Source: Rubeoparvulum massiliense
GTDB lineage: Bacteria > Bacillota > Bacilli > Rubeoparvulales > Rubeoparvulaceae
Reading direction: 5' to 3'
Length of the DNA: 64,000 nt
Assembly (NCBI RefSeq): GCF_001049895.1
Contig: NZ_CVPE01000005.1
Location: 186,001-250,000 of the forward strand
The notes beneath the pieces are model-generated. The model was not told the DNA's origin, did no database searches, and saw nothing but the letters and a program-made list of their open reading frames with translations. A program made the position numbers and the translations under genes. Positions 429 through 41,113 of this stretch are shown one piece after another (position 1 is the stretch's first letter; every line of letters begins with the position of its first letter).

Positions 429-641
429 CTCCTTCCACACATGGCAAACCGCTTGCTTTTCTCTTCACGCCTTAACCAGTAAATATTGCTGCTGCCAATA
501 TTCCCATCATAGATCCAATATTCTTTTCTATATTATCAAGAGATTGAAGTAGTGGCAAATAAAAGTTATTGAAACATTCAACTCCATTCAAGACCAATAG
601 AACCCGATTCTTGGAAGCATAGATAAATCGCAATGATCAGA

Positions 642-668
642 AAAGGAGTGCAATGACTGCACTCCTTT
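642..668 (-). terminator. Terminator after hpf
   Basis: Arms AAAGGAGTGCA and TGCACTCCTTT (11 bp, perfect) enclose a 5-base loop. It lies 49 bases downstream of the hpf stop. Short T-rich stretches follow on both strands, so it could work in both directions. The rest of 429-716 shows no other feature I can support. Confidence 0.7.
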
Positions 669-716
669 CTTTATAGCATAACCAGATTAAAATTTCATGA
701 AAGTGAATGAAATTGT

Positions 717-1259
717 TTAAACAGTTTCGATTAAACCGTAGCGACCATCCTTACGTTTGTAGACGATATCAACACTATCGCTCTCAGCATTGTTGAAGAC
801 GAAGAAGTTGTGGCCTAACATTTCCATTTGAAGTACAGCCTCTTCCACATCCATGGGTTTCAAGTTGAAGCGCTTGGTACGAACGATTTCGATGTTATCC
901 TCTTCCTCTGCTCGACCATTGCCATTAGTCTCTGTGAAAATATTTTTAATCGTACCGTCTTGACGGAATTTGCGATTAATCTTTGTTTTATGCTTACGAA
1001 TTTGACGCTCCAGTTTATCAACAACTCCATCGATGGAGGCGTACATATCCTTGTCCGTCTCTTCAGCACGAAGAATGACACCTTTAAGAGGGATGGTAAC
1101 TTCTACAGTATGCTCATCACGAACCACTTGAAGGGTTACATGACCCTCAACATTTTGACCTTCAATGTATTTGTCAAGCCGTCCAACCTTTTCCTCTACA
1201 TAGCTGCGAAGAGCTGGCGTTACCTCAATATTCTCACCGCGAATATTATACTTTAACAT
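717..1259 (-). CDS. hpf: Ribosome hibernation promoting factor, long form
   Basis: Long HPF dimerises 70S ribosomes into inactive 100S particles in stationary phase or stress. The protein is 180 residues: an N-terminal ribosome-binding domain (MLKYNIRGENIEVTPALRSY, about residues 1-100), a charged linker, and a C-terminal dimerisation domain (RTKRFNLKPMDVEEAVLQME through GHNFFVFNNAESD). I chose the ATG at 1259 rather than the longer frame because GGAAGGAGGAGG lies just upstream. Position next to secA matches B. subtilis yvyD. The upstream region carries a dense DnaA-box cluster, which is unusual for this gene. Confidence 0.95.
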   Translation of the reverse strand: MLKYNIRGENIEVTPALRSYVEEKVGRLDKYIEGQNVEGHVTLQVVRDEHTVEVTIPLKGVILRAEETDKDMYASIDGVVDKLERQIRKHKTKINRKFRQDGTIKNIFTETNGNGRAEEEDNIEIVRTKRFNLKPMDVEEAVLQMEMLGHNFFVFNNAESDSVDIVYKRKDGRYGLIETV

Positions 1260-2114: not shown

Positions 2115-2516
2115 CTACTTTTCTGAGGATACTGAAGCAGTTGGATGCTTGGCTAGCTTCATCGCCTGCTCCCAGGTCGCTTTAAACTGAATGAGAAATT
2201 CCTCAACTTCATTAAGGATTTCCCCATCCTTCTGAACATTGGCTTCTATCAAACGATTGCGGAGATAATCATATAGTTGGAGCAATTGCTTGGAAAGATC
2301 AACATCCATGTTGAGCGTAACCATGAGTTCATTGATAATATCCTGAGCCCGCACATTGGCCTGATGAGCCTTTTCCAATTCTTTATGTTCTAGAGCCTGC
2401 TTGGACTGGCGGACAAAGCGGATTGCTCCATTATAAAGCATGAGCGTTAACTCTGCTGGCGTAGCGGTAGTAACGGCATTCTGCTGGTAGATCTGCTGTG
2501 GGTTCCTCATCGACAT
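2115..2516 (-). CDS. fliS: Flagellin export chaperone FliS
   Basis: FliS binds flagellin in the cytosol, prevents premature polymerisation and delivers it to the export gate. The 133-residue protein shows the family pattern: NPQQIYQQNAVTTATPAELT near the start, LMLYNGAIRFV, and the AQDIINELMVTLNMD helix, ending in a variable tail. In Bacillus FliS also interacts with FliW/CsrA circuitry because flagellin, FliS and FliW compete for partners. It lies between fliD and the fliT-like gene on one strand. The start at 2516 has a rather distant GGAGT; the next in-frame ATG (2510) is possible. Confidence 0.95.
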   Translation of the reverse strand: MSMRNPQQIYQQNAVTTATPAELTLMLYNGAIRFVRQSKQALEHKELEKAHQANVRAQDIINELMVTLNMDVDLSKQLLQLYDYLRNRLIEANVQKDGEILNEVEEFLIQFKATWEQAMKLAKHPTASVSSEK

Positions 2517-5477: not shown

Positions 5478-6623
5478 TTAGCCCAGTACCTCTTTAACAT
5501 CATGAATCACAGCTTGGACATGGGACTCAGTCATTTTGGGGAAAAGCGGAAGTGTTATCATACTTTCATATAAGTTCTCAGCTTGTGGGCATAATCCCTG
5601 TTTGTACCCTAACCGTTGATAATATGGATGAAGATAGACTGGAATGTAATGAACATTGGCACCTATCTTTCTTTCTATCAATCTTTGATAAGCTTCGTCT
5701 CTATTCACACCAATTTTATTTGAATCAATTTGAATGATGTAGAGGTGCCAGCTAGAATGAGAGCTATCTAGCTGATGGGGAAGTATAAGCCCATCAATTC
5801 CTTTGAAAGCCTCGTTGTATTGGTGAGCAATCTCCCGTCTCCGTTTTAAAAATCGGTCTGCCTTTTTTAGTTGACTAAGACCTAAGGCTGCTTGAATATC
5901 GGTCATTCGATAGTTGTATCCTAATTCTATTTGTTCATAATACCAATGGTCCTTGTTTTGATGCAGCATCTTCGGATCTCGAGTTATTCCATGAGAACGG
6001 AATAGCTTAAGTTTTTCATACAATTCATCATTATTTGTTGTAATCATACCACCCTCGCCAGTAGTAATATGCTTAACGGGATGGAAACTAAAGGTGGTCA
6101 TATCAGAGATACTTCCTATCTTTCTTCCCTTATAGTCTGCTCCAATTGCATGGGCAGCATCTTCGATAACGATTAAGTTATATTCTTGCGCAATTTTATA
6201 TATTTCATCCATATCACAAGGTTGTCCAGTGAAGTGAACAGGAATGAGCGCCTTTGTCTTTGAGGTGATATTCTTCCTAATCTCAGATGGCGAGATATTA
6301 TAAGTGATAGGGTCAATATCAGCAAAAACAGGGGTACCTCCACAATATAATACGCAGTTTGCAGATGCAGCAAAGGTGATCGGTGTTGTAATTACCTCAT
6401 CACCTTCTCCGATGCCAGCCGCAAAACAAGCCGCGTGAAGTGCTGCTGTTCCATTCGAAATGGCCACTGCATACTTAGCACCAACATACTTTGCAAATTT
6501 TTTTTCAAATGCTTCAATTGTAGGTCCCGTAGTTAGGTAATCCGAACGTAGTACATCTACTACGGCTTGAATATCTTCCTCATCAACCCACTGACGGCCG
6601 TATGGAATAAATTCATGGTTCAT
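5478..6623 (-). CDS. pseC: UDP-4-amino-4,6-dideoxy-N-acetyl-beta-L-altrosamine transaminase PseC
   Basis: PseC is the PLP-dependent aminotransferase of step 2 of pseudaminic acid synthesis; it aminates the 4-keto sugar made by PseB using glutamate. The 381-residue protein belongs to the DegT/DnrJ/EryC1 family: start IPYGRQWVDEEDIQAVVDVL, AISNGTAALHAACFAAG for cofactor phosphate binding, VIEDAAHAIGADYKG, and the PLP lysine in TFSFHPVKHITTGEGG (about K184). It is the last gene of the pse operon, 3 bases after pseG. Confidence 0.94.
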   Translation of the reverse strand: MNHEFIPYGRQWVDEEDIQAVVDVLRSDYLTTGPTIEAFEKKFAKYVGAKYAVAISNGTAALHAACFAAGIGEGDEVITTPITFAASANCVLYCGGTPVFADIDPITYNISPSEIRKNITSKTKALIPVHFTGQPCDMDEIYKIAQEYNLIVIEDAAHAIGADYKGRKIGSISDMTTFSFHPVKHITTGEGGMITTNNDELYEKLKLFRSHGITRDPKMLHQNKDHWYYEQIELGYNYRMTDIQAALGLSQLKKADRFLKRRREIAHQYNEAFKGIDGLILPHQLDSSHSSWHLYIIQIDSNKIGVNRDEAYQRLIERKIGANVHYIPVYLHPYYQRLGYKQGLCPQAENLYESMITLPLFPKMTESHVQAVIHDVKEVLG

Positions 6624-6626
6624 TAT

Positions 6627-7655
6627 CTACATTCCCTTCTCCAATAAGTGGCTGATTATTTTCTCCACAATTCTTTCTGTTCCTTTACCATCGACCAATG
6701 ACTGCTGCTTTGATACCATCTCCTGTCTTGTAATATAGTCATCCATTAAATGTTTAAGATTATCTATGAGTTGCCGTGAAGAAACTTCAGTGTACCATCC
6801 CATACTCTTGATAAATCCACATTGATCCATCTGTTCCGATATCATTTGCTGATTATCAGCCATAATAAATCCTAATGTTGGTACACCACAAGCACATAAT
6901 TCATACAAGGTACTTCCACTTGATGAAATGGCCAAATCAGCTCGCAACATAAGCTCCGATATTCTTGCGATATTTTTATAGAAATGGATATGATTATCGG
7001 AATTTAATTTTTTCTTTAGCTGCTCATCAAATTGGAAACTATTACCAATTACAACATGTAGACTAATCTCTTTCATCCTTGGCTCACTACGAATCGCCTG
7101 GATGATCCATTCAGTCAAATGATGAGGATCTGATCCGCCAGTGGTGATTAAAATGTCTCGAACAGACTTGTTCACATGGCGCTGCGGAAGTCCTTTAAAT
7201 TCTTCTCTAATCAGGTTATATTGAGGACCTAATAAGAAAACTTGTTCTTCATACAAAGCTTCGTATTTAAGATATTCTCCAGTGATATTACCATTGATAA
7301 TAATATCTACAGGGTATCGATATGCATTCAAATCATCAATATATACAAGAACCTTAGCATATGGTTTTATTGCTAAAAAAAAGGATGGTGTCACCTCATA
7401 ATGATCCACCACCAAAATATCAAATGCCTTCCCTTCCAATTCACTGATTATTGATTTCGCTTCAAACTGATTGGAAGGTAGAGTATAGACTAAATAACCT
7501 TCTTCTCTTACTTTTGCAATACCCTCAGGATATCGACTAAAGAAGGCAACCTGAGCACCATGTCGAGTAAACGCTTTAGCAAGAGACAAAGAACGCATAA
7601 TGTGTCCCATCCCTAGAGTTTGACCACCATCGGCATAGAAGGCAAGTTTATACAT
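6627..7655 (-). CDS. pseG: UDP-2,4-diacylamido-2,4,6-trideoxy-beta-L-altropyranose hydrolase PseG
   Basis: PseG removes UDP from the diacylated intermediate, giving the free sugar for PseI. The 342-residue protein has the GT-B-like fold signature: DGGQTLGMGHIMRSLSLAKA at the N terminus (the GMGH histidine is the family catalytic residue), TTGGSDPHHLTEWII, and SSSGSTLYELCACGVPTLGF. I prefer ATG 7655 over the upstream GTG because the GTG is part of the AGGTGAT ribosome site. Unlike Campylobacter PseG fusions there is no attached acetyltransferase domain. Confidence 0.92.
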   Translation of the reverse strand: MYKLAFYADGGQTLGMGHIMRSLSLAKAFTRHGAQVAFFSRYPEGIAKVREEGYLVYTLPSNQFEAKSIISELEGKAFDILVVDHYEVTPSFFLAIKPYAKVLVYIDDLNAYRYPVDIIINGNITGEYLKYEALYEEQVFLLGPQYNLIREEFKGLPQRHVNKSVRDILITTGGSDPHHLTEWIIQAIRSEPRMKEISLHVVIGNSFQFDEQLKKKLNSDNHIHFYKNIARISELMLRADLAISSSGSTLYELCACGVPTLGFIMADNQQMISEQMDQCGFIKSMGWYTEVSSRQLIDNLKHLMDDYITRQEMVSKQQSLVDGKGTERIVEKIISHLLEKGM

Positions 7656-7672
7656 ATTGATCACCTATTACT

Positions 7673-8308
7673 CTATTCGTTTTCTTTGTGGATTTTCAAA
7701 ATATACTTATAACCATCTTTGATAAAAAAAAGTGGGTATCGTTCATTATCTGAAATTCGCATTAGATTAAATTGCTCCGCGATTGATTTATTGGGATCTA
7801 ACTCACTATCCATGGGAGTCCTACGTGGGTAAAAACTTTCCTCGCCTTCTTGTTTGTCACCTTCTACTGGGAAATTTTCTACGTACCACATTGCCATTTC
7901 AATAATTTTTTGGGCCATCTTTTCTCTAAGCTCATCCAATAGCTCATGACCCTCATAGAAGACAATGTCTTTCTTGTAAATTGGCCCACTATCCACTTTC
8001 CCAACAGCTTCAAACATCGTGAGATAAACTTCATTTTTCCCCTCAAGTATCTGCCAAGGCATCGGAGACCACCCCTTACCTTGTGGTAGATTACTAGCAT
8101 GAATCACAATATTGCTTCGATGAAGCTCTAATAGATGCCGTGGGCATATTTGGGTACAACTTAGAAAGAAAGCGATATCCCCCGATTGTAATTCAGTTAA
8201 TTCATTAATAAAGATTGACTCATGTTTATCTTGTAATAACGTAGACAGCTGTTTTGCATAGGGTATAAACCAGCTATTCTTCGAATCAACAATGACACTA
8301 ATCCTCAT
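7673..8308 (-). CDS. Formyltransferase-like protein in the Pse cluster
   Basis: A 211-residue protein of the formyltransferase N-terminal superfamily (10-formyl-THF-dependent). The signature is NIVIHASNLPQGKGWSPMPW followed by a downstream KVDSGPIY aspartate motif. In Met-tRNA formyltransferases the motif reads N-x-H; here the position two before His is Val and the Asn lies four before it, typical of a distinct WSP-type subfamily seen near nonulosonic acid genes. It lies between pseI and pseG, exactly where PseH (N-acetyltransferase) would be expected, and no PseH is visible. I infer it formylates the 4-amino group, giving a 7-N-formyl pseudaminic acid. A free-standing hydroxyarginine/amine formylase is the alternative. 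Confidence 0.8.
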   Translation of the reverse strand: MRISVIVDSKNSWFIPYAKQLSTLLQDKHESIFINELTELQSGDIAFFLSCTQICPRHLLELHRSNIVIHASNLPQGKGWSPMPWQILEGKNEVYLTMFEAVGKVDSGPIYKKDIVFYEGHELLDELREKMAQKIIEMAMWYVENFPVEGDKQEGEESFYPRRTPMDSELDPNKSIAEQFNLMRISDNERYPLFFIKDGYKYILKIHKENE

Positions 8309-8330
8309 GAAATATCACTTCACTTTCACT

Positions 8331-9380
8331 TTAATCAGAAATCATTGTCCACCTTAGAGGGGTTCCACATTCAATCGATTTTGAAGCTCGTTTTCCGATG
8401 ATCTCTTCGTAAAATTTTGGTGTCAAACCTTCACCTGGTCTGATCACTCGGATATTCTCTTTTGTAAATATTTCACCTTCTTGTATATCTTGAACGACAA
8501 AGATAGACTTTCGAAAAATCATACTTTTTTCTTCATTTGGTGAAATCTCGTAGCTTACTTTTCCCATTGCACGTTCTGCAGAGCGAATATCTTGAACCAT
8601 TTTTTTAAATTCATGAGGTTCCATCGAGAATGAAGCATCTGGATTTTCGATTTCTCTACTTAGACATAGATGCTTCTCAATCACACTAGCACCCATGGCA
8701 ACTGCAGTTACTGCTGCAATCGAACCCATCGAATGATCCGATAGTCCTACAGGGACATTAAATATTTCTGCCATATTCCTAATTGTACGCAAATTCATAT
8801 CTTCAGGTATTGCTGGATAGGAACTTGAACATTTTAAAAGGCATAGTTGGTCATTGCCTTGAGATCGAACTGCCTTCACTGCTTCTTCGATTTCTCCCAA
8901 TGTTCCCATGCCAGTAGACATAATAATTGGTTTACCTTTTGAAGCTACATATTTTATTAAAGGAGTATCAACTAACTCAAAGGAGGCAATTTTATAGAAT
9001 TCCACACCTAACTCTTCTAAAAAATCTACCGCTGTAAAATCAAAAGGAGTAGAAAAAAAATGAATGCCTACTTTATTGGCTTCCTCCATTAGTTGGCCTT
9101 GCCAATCCCATGGCGTGTATGCTTTACCATATAATTGGTAAAGATTTTTCCCTCGCCATAATCCTTCTTTTATCTGAAAAGGAGGTTTGTTGGAATTGAT
9201 AGTGATGGTATCTGGCGTGTATGTTTGGATCTTAATGCAATTAGCACCACTCTCTTTAGCCACATGAACTAACTCAATCGCTTTCTGGATATCGCCAGCA
9301 TGATTGCCTGACATCTCTGCAATAATGTATGCTGGATAACCTTCTCCAATATGCCTATCGATTATCGTTATATCTTTCAT
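8331..9380 (-). CDS. pseI: Pseudaminic acid synthase PseI
   Basis: PseI condenses the trideoxy-altrose with phosphoenolpyruvate to form pseudaminic acid. The protein is 349 residues: a NeuB-type TIM barrel (AYIIAEMSGNHAGDIQKAIE, CIKIQTYTPDTITI, FYKIASFELVDTPLIKYVAS, MSTGMGTLGEIEEAV, VGLSDHSMGSIAAVTAVAMG, EKHLCLSREIENPDASFSM) and a C-terminal SAF/antifreeze-like domain (RKSIFVVQDIQEGEIFTKEN). The ATG at 9380 is the start because the upstream in-frame ATG overlaps the AAGGAGG site. Third gene of the operon. Confidence 0.95.
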   Translation of the reverse strand: MKDITIIDRHIGEGYPAYIIAEMSGNHAGDIQKAIELVHVAKESGANCIKIQTYTPDTITINSNKPPFQIKEGLWRGKNLYQLYGKAYTPWDWQGQLMEEANKVGIHFFSTPFDFTAVDFLEELGVEFYKIASFELVDTPLIKYVASKGKPIIMSTGMGTLGEIEEAVKAVRSQGNDQLCLLKCSSSYPAIPEDMNLRTIRNMAEIFNVPVGLSDHSMGSIAAVTAVAMGASVIEKHLCLSREIENPDASFSMEPHEFKKMVQDIRSAERAMGKVSYEISPNEEKSMIFRKSIFVVQDIQEGEIFTKENIRVIRPGEGLTPKFYEEIIGKRASKSIECGTPLRWTMISD

Positions 9381-9406
9381 GTTATACCTCCTTATCACTT
9401 TATCTG

Positions 9407-10144
9407 CTACTTAACCTTCTTCTGTTCAATATGTGCATTGATTTTTATCAATTCGGGATGTTCACTGAATACTTTTAAAATATCATTATAATAAAAATCA
9501 TGTTTCCCGTTATATAGATAAAGATATACCGCTTGAATTAAGCGAAAATCTTCTTCCGTATCCAGTGTCCAACGATATTGAGAGTTGTTCTTTTCATCTT
9601 GGTAGTAATAGATTTTGTCACTCTTCTCATAAATATAGGGAGTTACATGTTCTCTATGATAAGGGGCATGTCCATTAAGATATGCTTCTTTCAAAGCTTG
9701 ATAAGAGAAGACTTCTGTATCCAATCCTCGTGGATAAGTTCGTTTTGATAAGTCTATACCTGCATTGGTGACCATTTCGTAATCATGGCTCTTATAAAAC
9801 TGAACTAACTGATCAATTATCAATGGATCTATTAATGGGCAGTCAGAAGTAATTCGTACAATCACATCCGCATGATACTTCGTTGCAGCTTCATAATATC
9901 GAGACAGAACATTCTCTTCGCTACCTCGGTAGATTTCTACTCCGTATTCTATTGCTGCTTTGGCAATGACATCATCTTGTGTAAAGGTTGTAGTCGCAAT
10001 CACAATCTGATCGAACCCATATGCTTGCTTCACACGTTCAATTACATGATGGAGAATTGTCTTACCATCGATTTTCATCATAACTTTTCCTGGTAAACGA
10101 GTGGAACCCATTCGCGCTTGAATAATTGCTATTACTTTTCCCAT
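9407..10144 (-). CDS. pseF: CMP-pseudaminic acid cytidylyltransferase-like protein (SpsF type)
   Basis: A 245-residue nucleotidyltransferase of the CTP_transf_3 family: start VIAIIQARMGSTRLPGKVMM, IVIATTTFTQDDVIA, RGSEENVLSRYYEAA, VIVRITSDCPLIDPLIID and a C-terminal RWTLDTEEDF. In context it should activate pseudaminic acid to CMP-Pse for the glycosyltransferase. The sequence resembles Bacillus SpsF (spore coat sugar) more than Campylobacter PseF, so the gene symbol rests on cluster position. Lies between pseB and pseI with short gaps. Confidence 0.85.
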   Translation of the reverse strand: MGKVIAIIQARMGSTRLPGKVMMKIDGKTILHHVIERVKQAYGFDQIVIATTTFTQDDVIAKAAIEYGVEIYRGSEENVLSRYYEAATKYHADVIVRITSDCPLIDPLIIDQLVQFYKSHDYEMVTNAGIDLSKRTYPRGLDTEVFSYQALKEAYLNGHAPYHREHVTPYIYEKSDKIYYYQDEKNNSQYRWTLDTEEDFRLIQAVYLYLYNGKHDFYYNDILKVFSEHPELIKINAHIEQKKVK

Positions 10145-10167
10145 GATGACACCCTTCTTGTCTTTAT

Positions 10168-11202
10168 TTAAACTCCAATAGTATTGTCAGCATGCACATC
10201 ATCCATAGCTATAACTCGCTCATGTAATTGTTCTACCGATAGCCAGTCTGTGTTTGTTCCTGAATTATACTCAAACCCTTCTTCGATCAATTGACCACCT
10301 GGTGTAAGGTATTTTCGTACATTCCACCAATCAAAGTGAGGGTAGATAATATAATGTTTGTCGTACTCATAAGTATTGCGAGAATCATCCCTGGGAACCA
10401 TGACCTCATGGAGCTTTTCCCCTTCACGAATTCCTACCTCTTTTAATATTGAATCGGGAGCCATAGCACGGGCTAAGTCAACAATTCTAAAAGATGGGAT
10501 TTTTGAGATATATGTTTCTCCACCCTTTGACTCTTCCAAAGCCTTGAATACTAACTCTACTCCTTCTTCTAATGTGATCCAAAAACGTGTCATTCGGTAA
10601 TCTGTGATTGGCAATTCTTTTGATCCTTGGTCAATTAAACTTTGAAAGAAGGGAATTACAGAGCCTCTACTTCCCGCAACATTTCCATAACGAACTACTG
10701 AGAAAATAGTCCCTGCTTGTCCAGAGTACGCATTGGCAGATATAAATAATTTATCTGAAACTAGTTTTGTTCCACCATATAGGTTAATCGGATTCACTGC
10801 TTTATCAGTTGATAGGGCTACAACCTTCTTCACACCACGATCTAACGAAGCATCAATCACATTTTGAGCACCATGAATATTAGTCTTGATCGCTTCAAAT
10901 GGATTGTACTCACAAGCTGGAACTTGTTTCATCGCAGCAGCATGGATTACATAGTCTACATCCTTAAAGGCACGATATAGACGCTCTTTATCTCGCACAT
11001 CCCCTATAAAAAAGCGAAGCTTCTTGAACTGATCAGAAGATAATTTTTGTGCAAACATGTTTTTCACAAGAAATTGTTTATACTCATCGCGGGAGTAAAT
11101 GATAACTCTGCGAGGATTATATCGTTCAAAGATCATTTCAGTGAATTTTTTTCCAAAGGATCCTGTGCCACCAGTGATAAGGATTGATGCATTATTTAGC
11201 AA
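10168..11202 (-). CDS. pseB: UDP-GlcNAc 4,6-dehydratase (5-inverting) PseB
   Basis: PseB catalyses step 1 of pseudaminic acid synthesis, converting UDP-GlcNAc to the 4-keto-6-deoxy-L-arabino sugar. The 344-residue SDR protein shows ILITGGTGSFGKKFTEMIFE (NADP-binding), FIGDVRDKERLYRAF, HAAAMKQVPACEYNPFEA, ALSTDKAVNPINLYGGTKLV with the Y-xxx-K pair, and VRYGNVAGSRGSVIPFF. Start is a TTG at 11202 with GGTAGGTG seven bases upstream. First gene of the pse operon; the 112 bases between it and the Maf gene may hold its promoter or be read through from it. Confidence 0.95.
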   Translation of the reverse strand: MLNNASILITGGTGSFGKKFTEMIFERYNPRRVIIYSRDEYKQFLVKNMFAQKLSSDQFKKLRFFIGDVRDKERLYRAFKDVDYVIHAAAMKQVPACEYNPFEAIKTNIHGAQNVIDASLDRGVKKVVALSTDKAVNPINLYGGTKLVSDKLFISANAYSGQAGTIFSVVRYGNVAGSRGSVIPFFQSLIDQGSKELPITDYRMTRFWITLEEGVELVFKALEESKGGETYISKIPSFRIVDLARAMAPDSILKEVGIREGEKLHEVMVPRDDSRNTYEYDKHYIIYPHFDWWNVRKYLTPGGQLIEEGFEYNSGTNTDWLSVEQLHERVIAMDDVHADNTIGV

Positions 11203-11314: not shown

Positions 11315-13150
11315 TTATTTTATTTTTATAGAATTATAATCCCCCTCGATTAGTCTAAAAGCCAAATTAACAAATTCTCTAGTCTTTGCAAGAGTATTAA
11401 CAATAATTATTTCTTTTGCTTCATTCTGCTTATCCAGATTGGAGCCTTTATAACTGAAACGCGTCTTAATACTTAACAGATCTGCTTGTAAGGCGTGAAC
11501 AATCACATCCCTATACGCAGCTATTTCTTCTAGTCTATTTTCAATGGATTCTAAGTACCTTATTTCATTTTCAATCCTATTAGTACTTACCTTTTTTTGT
11601 TTTAATTTTGTTAATCTTTTTATAGATAGTATCATTTCATCCTGTAGCTTAATTACTTCTAATAATTCAACCTTCATGATATCTAACCCTTGACTTAATT
11701 TCTCATAGTACTCATGCTTAATATCTTTAGTATCCATACACAAAGTAATTTCATCTTCAAATTGAATGTTGGATTCATTCTTCAACCTTACATCAAGCAC
11801 TTCTTGTGCTGTTAAATTAGCAACTCCCTCAATTCCCAGCCCACCTTCTGTTGCATTCAAAAATTCTACATTTGGATATCTCTTCACTGTGGCTTCGATG
11901 GTATATTTCATCTGGAGATAAGGATCTATTGCATAAACCTTTTCTCCATAGATATTATTCATTAATGTATATTCATGTTTTTTAGCCCATTCCTTATCCT
12001 CGAGTTCTGAACTTACACCTTTTGCATGTAACCCTTCCTCTGTATAAGATAAGTCTTGGCCCATAAGGATGATTCTCTTGCAGCCGATATCACATAAGAA
12101 GTTTAAAGTCGCATTAGCTACAGATGCACCAGAGAGAAATTCTTTATATGGAATTTTTGCTTTTTGATAAATGTACTTTCCTAGGTACTCAGATTCTAAT
12201 ATGAACCGAATTTTGGCGCCTTCATATTCTGGCAATATTTCATAATATAATGGGTTAGCAAATATCAATGGAGACACTACTGTATTGATATCTTCAAAAA
12301 CTCTATATTCCGCAGGATTTGCATCAATTGCTACTCTAAAATGGGGAACAATTCCATGACTATCTAATACTTTTATTGCGGAGCCTACTGCGAAGATAAT
12401 TGCTTTTTCTTTTATTTTCTCTAGAAGATGGATGTTTTTATTTAATGATGGACCTGCTGAGACAAGGACAACAGTCTTATCTCTAAAAATATCTATGATA
12501 CTCTCGATAGGTAGTGTATTCTGTGTCTTTAGATTTTTTATTGAGTTTAATAGCCATAATTGCCACTGACCTGCAAATGTACGAATATCTCCCGTCTTTA
12601 CCTTTAGTAGTTTAGTAAGGTGGGATGTCAGATTATTGTAGTAAGAATTAAACAAACTACAATAGGATACATGAAAAACAATCGAAACCTTTTTTGAATC
12701 CAACATATAAAAGTACAGCGCATCTGCCACAAAGTTCTCTTTTTTATTGACAATAAAAGTGAGGCTAACATCTTTCTTGAGCAATTTACTTATATCATGT
12801 CTTTCTAAATATCTTTTGAACAATTGCTGTGATGGCTCTACAATGATAACCTCGTGTAGTTTATTATATTTTTTTAATATGTATTCAAGGAGATGACCAT
12901 TTCCTATGCCAAATAGAATAATGGTATCGATATCATTATCTGTTTGATTCAACATCATTTTTATTTCATGTTCCATATCATAAATACTATGTAAAAAACA
13001 CTTTGCTTCCTTAGTTTCAATGACACAATTATCCTGGTCTGGCATTTCTTTGAGATAAATATGATATAAAGGAGTCTCTTTAGATAAGGTATCATATAGC
13101 TGTGGAGCCTTATCTTTAAAAAATGACATGTTTTTTTCATAGATGGTCAT
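11315..13150 (-). CDS. Motility-associated glycosyltransferase, Maf family
   Basis: Maf proteins transfer CMP-activated nonulosonic acids to Ser/Thr of flagellin before export. The 611-residue protein carries an N-terminal Rossmann-like part (IILFGIGNGHLLEYILKKYN, about 77-96; VIIVEPSQQLFKRYLE), and the MAF_flag10/DUF115 core with VVLVSAGPSLNKNIHLLEKI (about 227-246), VAIDANPAEYRVFEDI, IILMGQDLSYTEEGLHAKGV and a coiled-coil C-terminal tail rich in Lys. It lies between flagellin and pseB, so flagellin-pseudaminylation is the most likely job. Codon use here is A/T-richer than neighbouring housekeeping genes, common for glycosylation islands. Confidence 0.9.
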   Translation of the reverse strand: MTIYEKNMSFFKDKAPQLYDTLSKETPLYHIYLKEMPDQDNCVIETKEAKCFLHSIYDMEHEIKMMLNQTDNDIDTIILFGIGNGHLLEYILKKYNKLHEVIIVEPSQQLFKRYLERHDISKLLKKDVSLTFIVNKKENFVADALYFYMLDSKKVSIVFHVSYCSLFNSYYNNLTSHLTKLLKVKTGDIRTFAGQWQLWLLNSIKNLKTQNTLPIESIIDIFRDKTVVLVSAGPSLNKNIHLLEKIKEKAIIFAVGSAIKVLDSHGIVPHFRVAIDANPAEYRVFEDINTVVSPLIFANPLYYEILPEYEGAKIRFILESEYLGKYIYQKAKIPYKEFLSGASVANATLNFLCDIGCKRIILMGQDLSYTEEGLHAKGVSSELEDKEWAKKHEYTLMNNIYGEKVYAIDPYLQMKYTIEATVKRYPNVEFLNATEGGLGIEGVANLTAQEVLDVRLKNESNIQFEDEITLCMDTKDIKHEYYEKLSQGLDIMKVELLEVIKLQDEMILSIKRLTKLKQKKVSTNRIENEIRYLESIENRLEEIAAYRDVIVHALQADLLSIKTRFSYKGSNLDKQNEAKEIIIVNTLAKTREFVNLAFRLIEGDYNSIKIK

Positions 13151-13529: not shown

Positions 13530-14723
13530 TTATCTTAATAATTGGAGTACGCCTTGTGGAGCTTGGTTAGCTTGAGCTAACATCGCTGTTGCTGCTTGTT
13601 GCAGAATATTTTGCTTCGTGAATTCCATCATTTCTTTCGCCATATCCACGTCACGAATACGAGATTCAGAGGCTTGAAGGTTTTCAGCAGATGTATCAAG
13701 ATTTTTGATTGTATGCTCTAAGCGATTTTGCATAGCACCAAGTTTGGATCTTTCTGCTGAAACAGATTCGATTGCACCATTGATGGTAGTAATAGCTTTT
13801 GATGCATTTGCTTGAGTATAAACATTGATACCTACTTCCTTAGTTGTATCTTCTGTTGTTATATCAACCGTCGTACTAAGGTCGGTAGGTTCAGTTGTAA
13901 TTGCTGTAGTACCTAAAGTAGCTGTTGCTTCAACCTTAATTCCAGCTTCTCCTGCGATCTTGTCCAGTGCAGCTTTGATAGCTGCTTCTGTACCTGTAAC
14001 AGCGCCTGCTGCACCAGTCGTACCTGCTGCTTGTGCTAAGGTTATTGTGATCTTTCCACTAGCTTTATCATAAGAAGCAGTAGTTTCTGCTATAGCAGCT
14101 GCTCCAGAACCTGCATATGCTGCAATGTCAATATTCAATGCATCTCCTGTTAAACTTGTAACACTGATATTCGTAGCACCTGTACTTTCGAGTGCTGTTG
14201 CTGTATATGCTTTTCCTTTAACTCCTAGTGCATCTGCATCCATCTTACCAATGGATAAGTCAACATCTTGTCCTTCATTTGCACCAATATGGAATTTTGC
14301 TGAGAAATCGCCACCTAAAAGGTTTTGAGTATTAAATTCTGTTGTATCTGCAATTCTTGTTAGCTCTTGGGACAATTGGTCTATTTCTTTTTGAATTTCG
14401 CCACGGTCAACTGCAACGTTTGTATCGTTTGCAGATTGAACAGCTAATTCACGCATTCTTTGTAGAATGGCTTGTGATTCTTGAAGAGCACCTTCAGCTG
14501 TTTGAATCAAGGAAATACCATCTTGAGCATTTCTAGATGCTTGGTTAAGTCCTCGTACTTGAGCTCGCATTTTTTCAGAGATTGCAAGACCTGCTGCGTC
14601 ATCTCCAGCACGATTAATCCGAAAACCGGAAGAGAGTTTTTCTAAGGACTTTGCAGTCATGGTATTGTTAATACCTAACTGACGATGAGTATTCATTGCC
14701 ATTAAGTTGTTATTAATCCGCAT
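13530..14723 (-). CDS. hag: Flagellin
   Basis: The filament subunit, 397 residues. The conserved N-terminal D0/D1 (MRINNNLMAMNTHRQLGIN, AGDDAAGLAISEKMRAQVRG, SLIQTAEGALQESQAILQRM) and C-terminal D1/D0 (RSKLGAMQNRLEHTIKNLD, EMMEFTKQNILQQAATAMLA, ending QGVLQLLR) flank a variable Ala/Thr/Gly-rich region (about residues 165-300) that is the probable glycosylation target. ATG 14723 is chosen over the longer frame because AAGGAGGAA lies nine bases upstream. The gene is monocistronic: own sigma-D-like promoter, structured leader and terminator. In B. subtilis hag directly follows csrA; here they are 25 kb apart. Confidence 0.97.
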   Translation of the reverse strand: MRINNNLMAMNTHRQLGINNTMTAKSLEKLSSGFRINRAGDDAAGLAISEKMRAQVRGLNQASRNAQDGISLIQTAEGALQESQAILQRMRELAVQSANDTNVAVDRGEIQKEIDQLSQELTRIADTTEFNTQNLLGGDFSAKFHIGANEGQDVDLSIGKMDADALGVKGKAYTATALESTGATNISVTSLTGDALNIDIAAYAGSGAAAIAETTASYDKASGKITITLAQAAGTTGAAGAVTGTEAAIKAALDKIAGEAGIKVEATATLGTTAITTEPTDLSTTVDITTEDTTKEVGINVYTQANASKAITTINGAIESVSAERSKLGAMQNRLEHTIKNLDTSAENLQASESRIRDVDMAKEMMEFTKQNILQQAATAMLAQANQAPQGVLQLLR

Positions 14724-14730
14724 CTTAAAA

Positions 14731-14767
14731 TTCCTCCTTGAATTATGTTCTTTGCACATCCATGTGC
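14731..14767 (-). promoter_or_regulatory. Candidate CsrA-binding sites in the flagellin leader
   Basis: In the RNA, GCACA-UGGA-UGUGC (14767-14754) forms a 5-bp hairpin that shows GGA in its loop, the classic CsrA target. A second GGA-containing site is the ribosome site itself, AAGGAGGAA (14739-14731), about 22 bases further on. This is the same two-site layout described for the B. subtilis hag leader (BS1 in a hairpin, BS2 over the Shine-Dalgarno). CsrA and its antagonist FliW are encoded at 40.5-41.1 kb. Confidence 0.7.
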
Positions 14768-14774
14768 TTTTTTG

Positions 14775-14812
14775 GAACTAGAACACTTGTCGCGCGCCAA
14801 GTATTCTAGTTC
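14775..14812 (-). promoter_or_regulatory. Long stem-loop at the 5' end of the flagellin leader
   Basis: Arms GAACTAGAATACTTG and CAAGTGTTCTAGTTC (RNA strand) pair over 15 positions with one G-U pair around an 8-base GC-rich loop. The predicted message begins only a few bases upstream, so the stem would cap the transcript and may give message stability. It is too far from a gene end and lacks a T-run, so it is not a terminator. Confidence 0.7.
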
Positions 14813-14823
14813 ATACACTATTC

Positions 14824-14848
14824 TTATCGGATGAAGGTTCTGCTTTTA
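14824..14848 (-). promoter_or_regulatory. hag: Candidate sigma-D promoter of flagellin
   Basis: Minus strand: TAAA (14848-14845), 14 bases, CCGATAA (14830-14824). This matches the sigma-D/sigma-28 core (TAAA ... GCCGATAA/T), with a spacer slightly shorter than usual. The start point would be near 14817, giving a leader of roughly 94 bases. Confidence 0.65.
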
Positions 14849-40424: not shown

Positions 40425-40497
40425 CTTTAATGCGTTAACTCAATGGGGGACTGACCCCTATTTCTTTAACGCGGTAATGTATTGGGGGACTGACCCC
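40425..40497. repeat. REP-like element R7 (one and a half units)
   Basis: TTAATGCGTTAA (40427-40438), GGGGGACTGACCCC (40445-40458), TTAACGCGGTAA (40466-40477), GGGGGACTGACCCC (40484-40497). The right half forms the C-terminal codons and stop of csrA. Confidence 0.88.
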
Positions 40498-40679
40498 GTG
40501 ATAGTTGCTGCTTCATTCTCTTCTTGGATTGCCATATAGATCTCCTTACGATGAATCTCTACGTGGCGAGGTGCAACAATGCCCAGCTTTACTTGCTCTC
40601 CTTCAATGGCCAGAACCTTCAGCTCAATATCAGGTCCAATCATGATGGACTGATTGGACTTACGGGTGAGGACTAACAT
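40458..40679 (-). CDS. csrA: Translational regulator CsrA with repeat-derived tail
   Basis: CsrA is a dimeric RNA-binding protein that blocks flagellin translation until FliW removes it. 73 residues: [40 protein letters not shown] with N55 (the FliW contact known from B. subtilis) in place. The ribosome-site-bound RNA target is expected in the hag leader at 14.75 kb. Residues from about 62 ([12 protein letters not shown]) are coded by element R7 and do not look like the usual helical C-terminal extension. It begins two bases after fliW. Confidence 0.95.
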
Positions 40680-40681
40680 GA

Positions 40682-41113
40682 TTACTCCTCCCCCTTCTTC
40701 ACAAGCGGTGCTTTTCGAGAATAGTTCTCCTCTAGAACCACCTGCTTGCCTGCTCTCTTCCTACGATTCAAGACAACAGGTGCCATGAGATTACATGTAG
40801 AATCTACAAGGGTCTTCCCCAAGGTCACAATGCTAAAGAGCTCCACATCCTCCAGGCCAACTAACTCCAATTGCTCTGCCACATAATCAGGCAGATGAAA
40901 ATCATAGTCTGGAAAAACCGTGAATGGATTGATAGCAATAAACGAAGGCACAGACTGATCAAGAGCTTGGATCACAGTAAATGGAGAGTCTCCTCCCAAT
41001 GGGATGAAGGCAAAGCGGTGAACGCTCTCAAACCCCGGAATTCCCTGAGCAAAGGTGTAGATCTGCTTCTCGTCGACATTGACATCTCCAATTAAGGGAC
41101 TATGTATTAGCAT
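40682..41113 (-). CDS. fliW: Flagellar assembly factor FliW
   Basis: FliW binds either flagellin or CsrA; when flagellin is exported, free FliW relieves CsrA repression. The 143-residue protein shows [59 protein letters not shown] and [20 protein letters not shown], all typical. Placed directly before csrA, as in Bacillus, with csrA's ribosome site inside its last codons. Confidence 0.96.

Follow-up and report, generated by a model that had tools for sequence, protein, structure and literature searches.

The flagellin locus and its leader

In the window, i.e. the whole 64-kb stretch of Rubeoparvulum massiliense DNA that was analysed, the flagellin gene hag lies on the minus strand. Its leader contains, from 5' to 3', a sigma-D-like promoter, the three stem-loops SL1, SL2 and SL3, and the start codon (Table 1). 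We take the promoter to be sigma-D-like from the consensus. Since the pattern TAAA-N13-16-CGATA has 3 matches in the window, one of them at 14825-14848, against 1.75 by chance, this assignment rests on the position and on the equal layout in relatives, and the transcription start of hag is the one predicted from this promoter. The leader folds more stably than 200 of 200 shuffles (z = -3.45), with SL2 present in the minimum-free-energy fold. An in-frame ATG inside SL2 (14757-14759) opens a mechanical ORF at 13530-14759 that is 12 residues longer than hag, but the relatives favour the start at 14723.

Table 1. Features of the hag leader and of the csrA-fliW pair in the window.
Feature	Position	Strand	Description	Basis
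hag (flagellin)	13530..14723	minus	start ATG at 14721-14723	best NCBIfam match flagellin Hag, 337 bits, under the curated cut-off of 352
presumed sigma-D-like promoter	14825..14848	minus	TAAA, 15-nt spacer, CGATA	
SL1	14775..14812	minus	15-bp stem-loop close to the predicted mRNA 5' end; loop GCGCGCGA (14790-14797) with a 6-nt palindrome	fold, SL1 model, relatives
SL2	14754..14767	minus	CsrA-type hairpin GCACAUGGAUGUGC, GCAC-AUGGAU-GUGC, with the upstream GGA at 14759-14761	sequence, fold, conservation, covariation
SL3	14729..14744	minus	AAUUC-AAGGAG-GAAUU, small hairpin with the Shine-Dalgarno GGA (14735-14737), the predicted second CsrA site	fold, relatives
Shine-Dalgarno	14733..14739	minus	AAGGAGG	
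fliW	40682..41113	minus	143 aa	PF02623, E 7.4e-32, above cut-off; nearest solved FliW 5dmb_A
csrA	40458..40679	minus	73 aa, directly after fliW	PF02599, E 8.6e-25; TIGR00202 above cut-off; similar to 1t3o and 5dmb

Rfam gave no match at the gathering score in the window; 4 matches were obtained at E up to 10, all of them far below the gathering scores. In the flagellin loci of 10 relatives, it returned nothing but two group I introns (RF00028), both in L016, the flagellin locus of G001 (125-461 and 577-937, minus strand). These introns follow the flagellin start and lie within the gene or close to it. Downstream of hag in the window, a gene at 11315-13150 has an NCBIfam PseD-like match far below the cut-off, and the adjoining genes at 5478-11202 appear by eye to be of surface-sugar type; this group is possibly involved in flagellin glycosylation.

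Both csrA and fliW have a single match in the genome, and by sequence comparison their products resemble the solved CsrA-FliW complex 5DMB. The sequence-only reading had placed csrA 25 kb from hag and presented the CsrA switch of the flagellin leader as kept in spite of this distance. The distance itself is right, with about 26.0 kb between the two gene starts, but it is unremarkable, because CsrA acts in trans and in 9 of 41 genomes the two genes are likewise at least 4 kb apart. In these 41, one contig carries both csrA and flagellin; they come from the 44 first-set genomes with csrA (G031, where they are on two contigs, G043 and G045 being left out), and in 30 of them the distance is within 1.5 kb. 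We therefore rejected the distance as meaningful.

Two GGA hairpins and their distribution with csrA

In total, 238 flagellin leaders were compared, being 158 from 113 Bacilli genomes and 80 named leaders, the latter the best 80 of 586 confirmed stretches, mostly from Bacilli and Clostridia, with B. subtilis hag not among them. The first 60 relatives sampled were all of the same class as the source organism. The csrA family search covered 116 flagellin genomes (48 + 68), the 113 included, and csrA was absent in seven (G006, G028, G029, G047, G077, G135 and G157), which belong to only two families, f6 and f7. The fliW gene was absent in 6 of the 48 first-set genomes, 4 of which are also without csrA. 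Among the csrA-less genomes, G006 and G029 have an atypical flagellin-like protein, and for L137, L138 and L146 the choice of start codon is uncertain. Three leaders were excluded from the counts (L071, L073, a filler region, and L074), and two genomes, G096 and G165, have flagellin yet contribute no leader.

SL2 was scored strictly, with at least 4 pairs around a GGA located 24-75 nt before the start codon, a limit that leaves Shine-Dalgarno hairpins uncounted. It was found in 107 of 151 leaders of genomes with csrA, in 65 of the 80 named leaders, in none of the 7 leaders of csrA-less genomes and in 4.8% of 4760 shuffled leaders. Counted by genome, SL2 is present in 97 of the 106 with csrA (98 when Shine-Dalgarno hairpins are allowed) and in 0 of the 7 without it (Fisher 3.0e-7, kinship ignored), although the independent evidence is thinner than this p value suggests, since the csrA-less genomes fall in two families. 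The remaining 9 genomes with csrA have no leader passing the strict test, and some of these show by eye a GGA hairpin of different shape. A divergent GGA hairpin, for example CTTGAACAAATGGATGGTTCAAG, recurs in many flagellin copies of G072, G109, G142 and L217 (Brevibacillus laterosporus) and fails the SL2 test. In the genome of R. massiliense, SL2 was not found at the second flagellin (G000:C5:136692).

The SL2 stem covaries. When 191 leaders are anchored, with no pairing criterion, on the GGA that lies closest to the Shine-Dalgarno on its upstream side, the six pairs outside the inner one are formed in 114, 133, 132, 121, 106 and 101 leaders against shuffle maxima of 104, 104, 85, 84, 80 and 86, and several pair types occur at each of these positions. 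Partners are paired in 59-70% of the leaders in register and in 7-64% when slid by 1-3 positions. On the other hand, the innermost pair, A-U here, is at chance (84 of 191 vs 86.8 in shuffles). Because this pair is not kept, we describe the SL2 loop as the hexaloop AUGGAU on a 4-bp stem, of the ANGGAN type known from CsrA/RsmE work (PMC7652899). As given in the available text of the same source, six-nucleotide loops occur in 44 of 55 SELEX winners, whose consensus is RUACARGGAUGU; SL2 agrees with it at 10 of 12 positions in a manual count (PMC7652899).

Counting the inner pair, both strands of the window together contain only 3 hairpins of the ANGGA type with 5 or more stacked pairs, one of them SL2, and the chance of finding one in a given 60-nt leader is about 0.1%. 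A second ANGGA hairpin, CUCAACAUGGAUGUUGAU (2298-2315, minus strand), lies inside fliS (2115-2516), where it coincides with the codons for LNMDVD; it may be a candidate CsrA site or a mere consequence of the protein sequence.

The Shine-Dalgarno contains the second GGA and, as judged from the relatives, this GGA sits in a covarying hairpin of its own, SL3. Among 163 leaders, pairs 1-4 around AAGGAG are formed in 152, 146, 107 and 85, all above 500 of 500 shuffles, and pairs 5-7 are not above the same shuffles. The SL2 and SL3 sites are 24 nt apart here, with a median of about 21 nt in relatives, and both GGA sites are in hairpins across the sampled Bacilli.

From the letters alone, a hairpin showing GGA in a four-base loop had been proposed at 14754-14767, followed by a second GGA in the Shine-Dalgarno, as in the two-site mechanism of CsrA and FliW. 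Both GGA sites are where that reading put them, and the hairpin (GCACA-UGGA-UGUGC) is part of the minimum-free-energy fold, but its 5-bp stem and four-base loop do not hold in the relatives, and within 14731-14767 the reading missed the hairpin around the Shine-Dalgarno, as it did SL1 further upstream. Counted by genome, loss of the hairpin or of its GGA in close relatives, which it named as a refutation, is confined to the csrA-less genomes and the 9 exceptions given above, and the covariation that it proposed to look for is found. Together with the presence of csrA and fliW, these comparisons support the assignment of the putative switch to the known hag/CsrA/FliW system, newly placed in this lineage.

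A conserved hairpin near the predicted 5' end

Upstream of SL2, SL1 carries the apical palindrome of six bases in the loop GCGCGCGA. To pass the SL1 test, a leader had to have a GC-rich 6-nt palindrome enclosed by a stem of 5 pairs or more. This was so in 70 of the 172 SL2-bearing leaders, in 9 of the 59 lacking SL2 and in 0 of 7 from csrA-less genomes; the background was 2.6% among 4760 shuffles and 2.3% among 2025 windows of flanking DNA. Many of the 102 leaders with SL2 that fail have the palindrome on an interrupted stem, and others have none. One of the csrA-less leaders, L067, does contain the loop octamer, as part of another hairpin.

Selection by the loop octamer alone is the fair test of the stem. 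With it, 81 distinct leaders show the six pairs next to the loop in 64, 61, 58, 49, 41 and 41 cases, the shuffle means being 53, 43, 35, 31, 29 and 28; every one of the six exceeds its shuffle maximum, pairs 1, 5 and 6 by a small margin. These stems vary in sequence but tend to remain paired. The covariation of alignment A2 is circular, because its 32 hand-chosen sequences come from 49 already preselected for pairing. We consider SL1 as a conserved hairpin under selection to be shown by this comparison of leaders.

Its position is also constrained. A -10 could be located in 65 of the 83 leaders with the octamer, and in 63 of these 65 the loop starts 28-41 nt after it (median 31). Among 143 distinct leaders, 82 have a GC-rich palindrome at 27-37 nt downstream of the -10, compared with 4 at 10-20 nt and 14 at 42-52 nt; without CGGCCG, CGCGCG and GCGCGC, the count is 30 of 143 vs 2 and 14 in the flanking intervals. 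Of 62 promoter-anchored leaders, 61 have the loop at the top of a stem that begins no more than about 10 nt from the predicted 5' end, a figure obtained with the loop forced unpaired and leaders preselected for the octamer. In the anchored leaders an internal loop often divides the structure into a basal and an apical stem.

The SL1 covariance model has its sole match in the window at 14780-14807 (E 0.0018), with SL1 itself among the 32 sequences of the model. As a genome survey, the model R1 was rejected as too short, since it misses the window's own copy at E up to 0.1; at this threshold 9 of 121 genomes matched, and 4 of the 9 matches are at flagellin by position. An intrinsic terminator was rejected as well, there being no U run 3' of the stem in this window. 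In three leaders of family f12 (L076, L084 and L102), a terminator-like hairpin ending in GGCTTTTTAATA is found in place of SL1, upstream of the CsrA hairpin, and could attenuate flagellin transcription.

Concerning the palindrome, CGGCCG accounts for 43 of the 79 SL1 test matches, and may be one inherited sequence. When hairpins were chosen by stem energy alone, 42 of 81 loops were palindromic against 10.5 in shuffled loops (maximum 20). Among loops picked by shape, with CGGCCG removed, the figures were 17 of 56 against 5.4 (maximum 13). Freely folded apical loops were palindromic in 34 of 53 cases with 5.9 expected; the figures fall to 6 of 25 vs 1.3 without CGGCCG, and to 1 of 20 vs 0.4 when CGCGCG and GCGCGC are removed too. 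Other palindromes at the same promoter distance are UGGCCA, GCCGGC, GGCGCC and GGGCCC, and CCUAGG, CCCGGG and CGUACG were each seen once. The two flagellin paralogs of G139, L142 and L269, differ here: one has the palindromic loop GCGGCCGA, and in the other a similar stem is capped by GCGA, as would result from losing the four bases in the middle.

We also searched 398 genomes for the promoter followed by GCGSSCGA, a pattern that permits two palindromic and two non-palindromic cores. There were 29 matches and 21 for the reversed control pattern (manual count), so that most of the matches are chance. Those before flagellin are palindromic in 11 of 11 cases, two of which (G000 and G030) were already in the leader set, and those elsewhere in 10 of 18, with two near-duplicate pairs (L256/L257 and L258/L281) among them (p = 0.010). 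The comparisons support, without proving, the self-complementarity of SL1; the main grounds are that CGGCCG and CGCGCG replace one another and the outcome of the positional test. Beyond these two cores, the evidence for palindromy is mixed.

Proposed mechanism and known systems

We suggest, as a highly probable reading, that the hag leader combines a sigma-D-like promoter, a two-site repression by CsrA at SL2 and SL3 that FliW relieves, and the conserved SL1, for which loop-loop pairing of two flagellin mRNAs is likeliest. SL2 and SL3 each present GGA in an ANGGAN-type hexaloop, at the 24-nt spacing. Reasoning from B. subtilis hag, a CsrA dimer would hold SL2, bridge to SL3 and cover the Shine-Dalgarno, blocking translation, and flagellin export would free FliW, which would then remove CsrA and allow translation. 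That the GGA hairpin is incidental and flagellin outside CsrA control in R. massiliense is hardly credible given that SL2 is absent from the sampled csrA-less genomes and covaries in others. The role of SL1 would be the pairing of the loops of two flagellin mRNAs; for the commonest cores, the six-base loop helix has a computed duplex energy near -10 to -11 kcal/mol, and two-strand fold energies were also computed.

The nearest rival to this pairing, which seems the most likely function, is the simple protection of the 5' end, in which the stem would keep RNases away from the end of an abundant mRNA, whatever the sequence of the loop. A stem near the predicted 5' end in nearly all anchored leaders, albeit octamer-chosen and folded with the loop unpaired, whose sequence varies while the pairing tends to persist, is what such a stabiliser would show. 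Palindromic loops far above loop shuffling, at a fixed place, are something that it does not need, and we regard it as rather unlikely. Unlikelier still is a protein recognition site, possibly for a symmetric dimer, in which case the palindrome would reflect the protein and not RNA pairing. The dominance of CGGCCG fits this, as does a free-fold test without clear excess beyond CGGCCG and CGCGCG, but one protein would hardly read UGGCCA, GCCGGC, GGCGCC and GGGCCC at the same promoter distance, plus the three cores seen once. The fixed distance from the -10 could also point to an element that acts as DNA, either an operator or a roadblock immediately after the promoter. This is improbable, as the stem sequence is free while its pairing is kept; in a fixed register, G.U cells (46 vs 68.8 expected) are somewhat better retained than A.C cells (40 vs 75.0), which favours RNA, weakly.

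In a wider form of this loop-loop pairing, we may tentatively propose that in many Bacilli and some Clostridia the flagellin mRNAs homodimerise by means of a palindromic 5' loop, a bacterial counterpart of the retroviral dimerisation site, although on balance we would sooner expect this general form to fail. Were it true, dimerisation would depend on mRNA concentration, so that a motility transcript present in many copies could monitor its own amount, link two CsrA switches to each other or shield its 5' ends at times of abundance. One study gives near-equal numbers of hag transcript, CsrA dimer and FliW for B. subtilis (PMC6529632), so the pairing of transcripts could alter how CsrA is shared.

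The CsrA part would carry the textbook homeostasis circuit into a lineage whose comparison covered relatives of the same class. SL1 would matter more. With a conserved self-complementary loop on a well-studied kind of bacterial mRNA, the concentration dependence of mRNA pairing would become directly testable in laboratory strains. Searches of the open-access literature on flagellin leaders, CsrA and kissing or palindromic mRNA loops brought up no description of a palindromic 5' hairpin of a flagellin mRNA; most subscription papers lie outside this literature, and a prior description is possible.

The original paper on hag and CsrA in B. subtilis is reportedly that of Yakhnin 2007. The available texts describe B. 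subtilis hag as having two CsrA sites, one over the Shine-Dalgarno, under the control of CsrA and FliW (PMC7652899, PMC6529632). The leader studied here is alike in being that of a flagellin mRNA with two predicted CsrA sites, one over the Shine-Dalgarno, in a genome with csrA and fliW. It differs in the csrA-fliW pair being 26 kb from hag, and SL1 is a further element of the leader here, the B. subtilis hag leader being outside the comparison set. The E. coli glgC leader, in the parts of the source available, similarly has a hairpin site, of high affinity in glgC, just upstream and another at the Shine-Dalgarno, bridged by one CsrA dimer (PMC7652899); it belongs to another gene, and the antagonists of E. 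coli CsrA are sRNAs whereas here the antagonist would be FliW.

Natural mRNA homodimers are rare, and the mRNA cases named in the available text of a review are oskar and bicoid; the term "flagell" is absent from that text (PMC7357161). The palindromic loop layout of SL1 is like that of the HIV-1 dimerisation initiation site and of the oskar mRNA 3' UTR as described there (PMC7357161). In these two the dimers have been tested, one in the genome of a virus and the other in a eukaryotic 3' UTR, whereas SL1 belongs to a bacterial 5' leader with proposed dimers. The flanks of the oskar loop are pyrimidines, unlike those of SL1, whereas the HIV-1 loop is flanked by conserved purines, and likewise G and A flank most SL1 loops (PMC7357161, available text).
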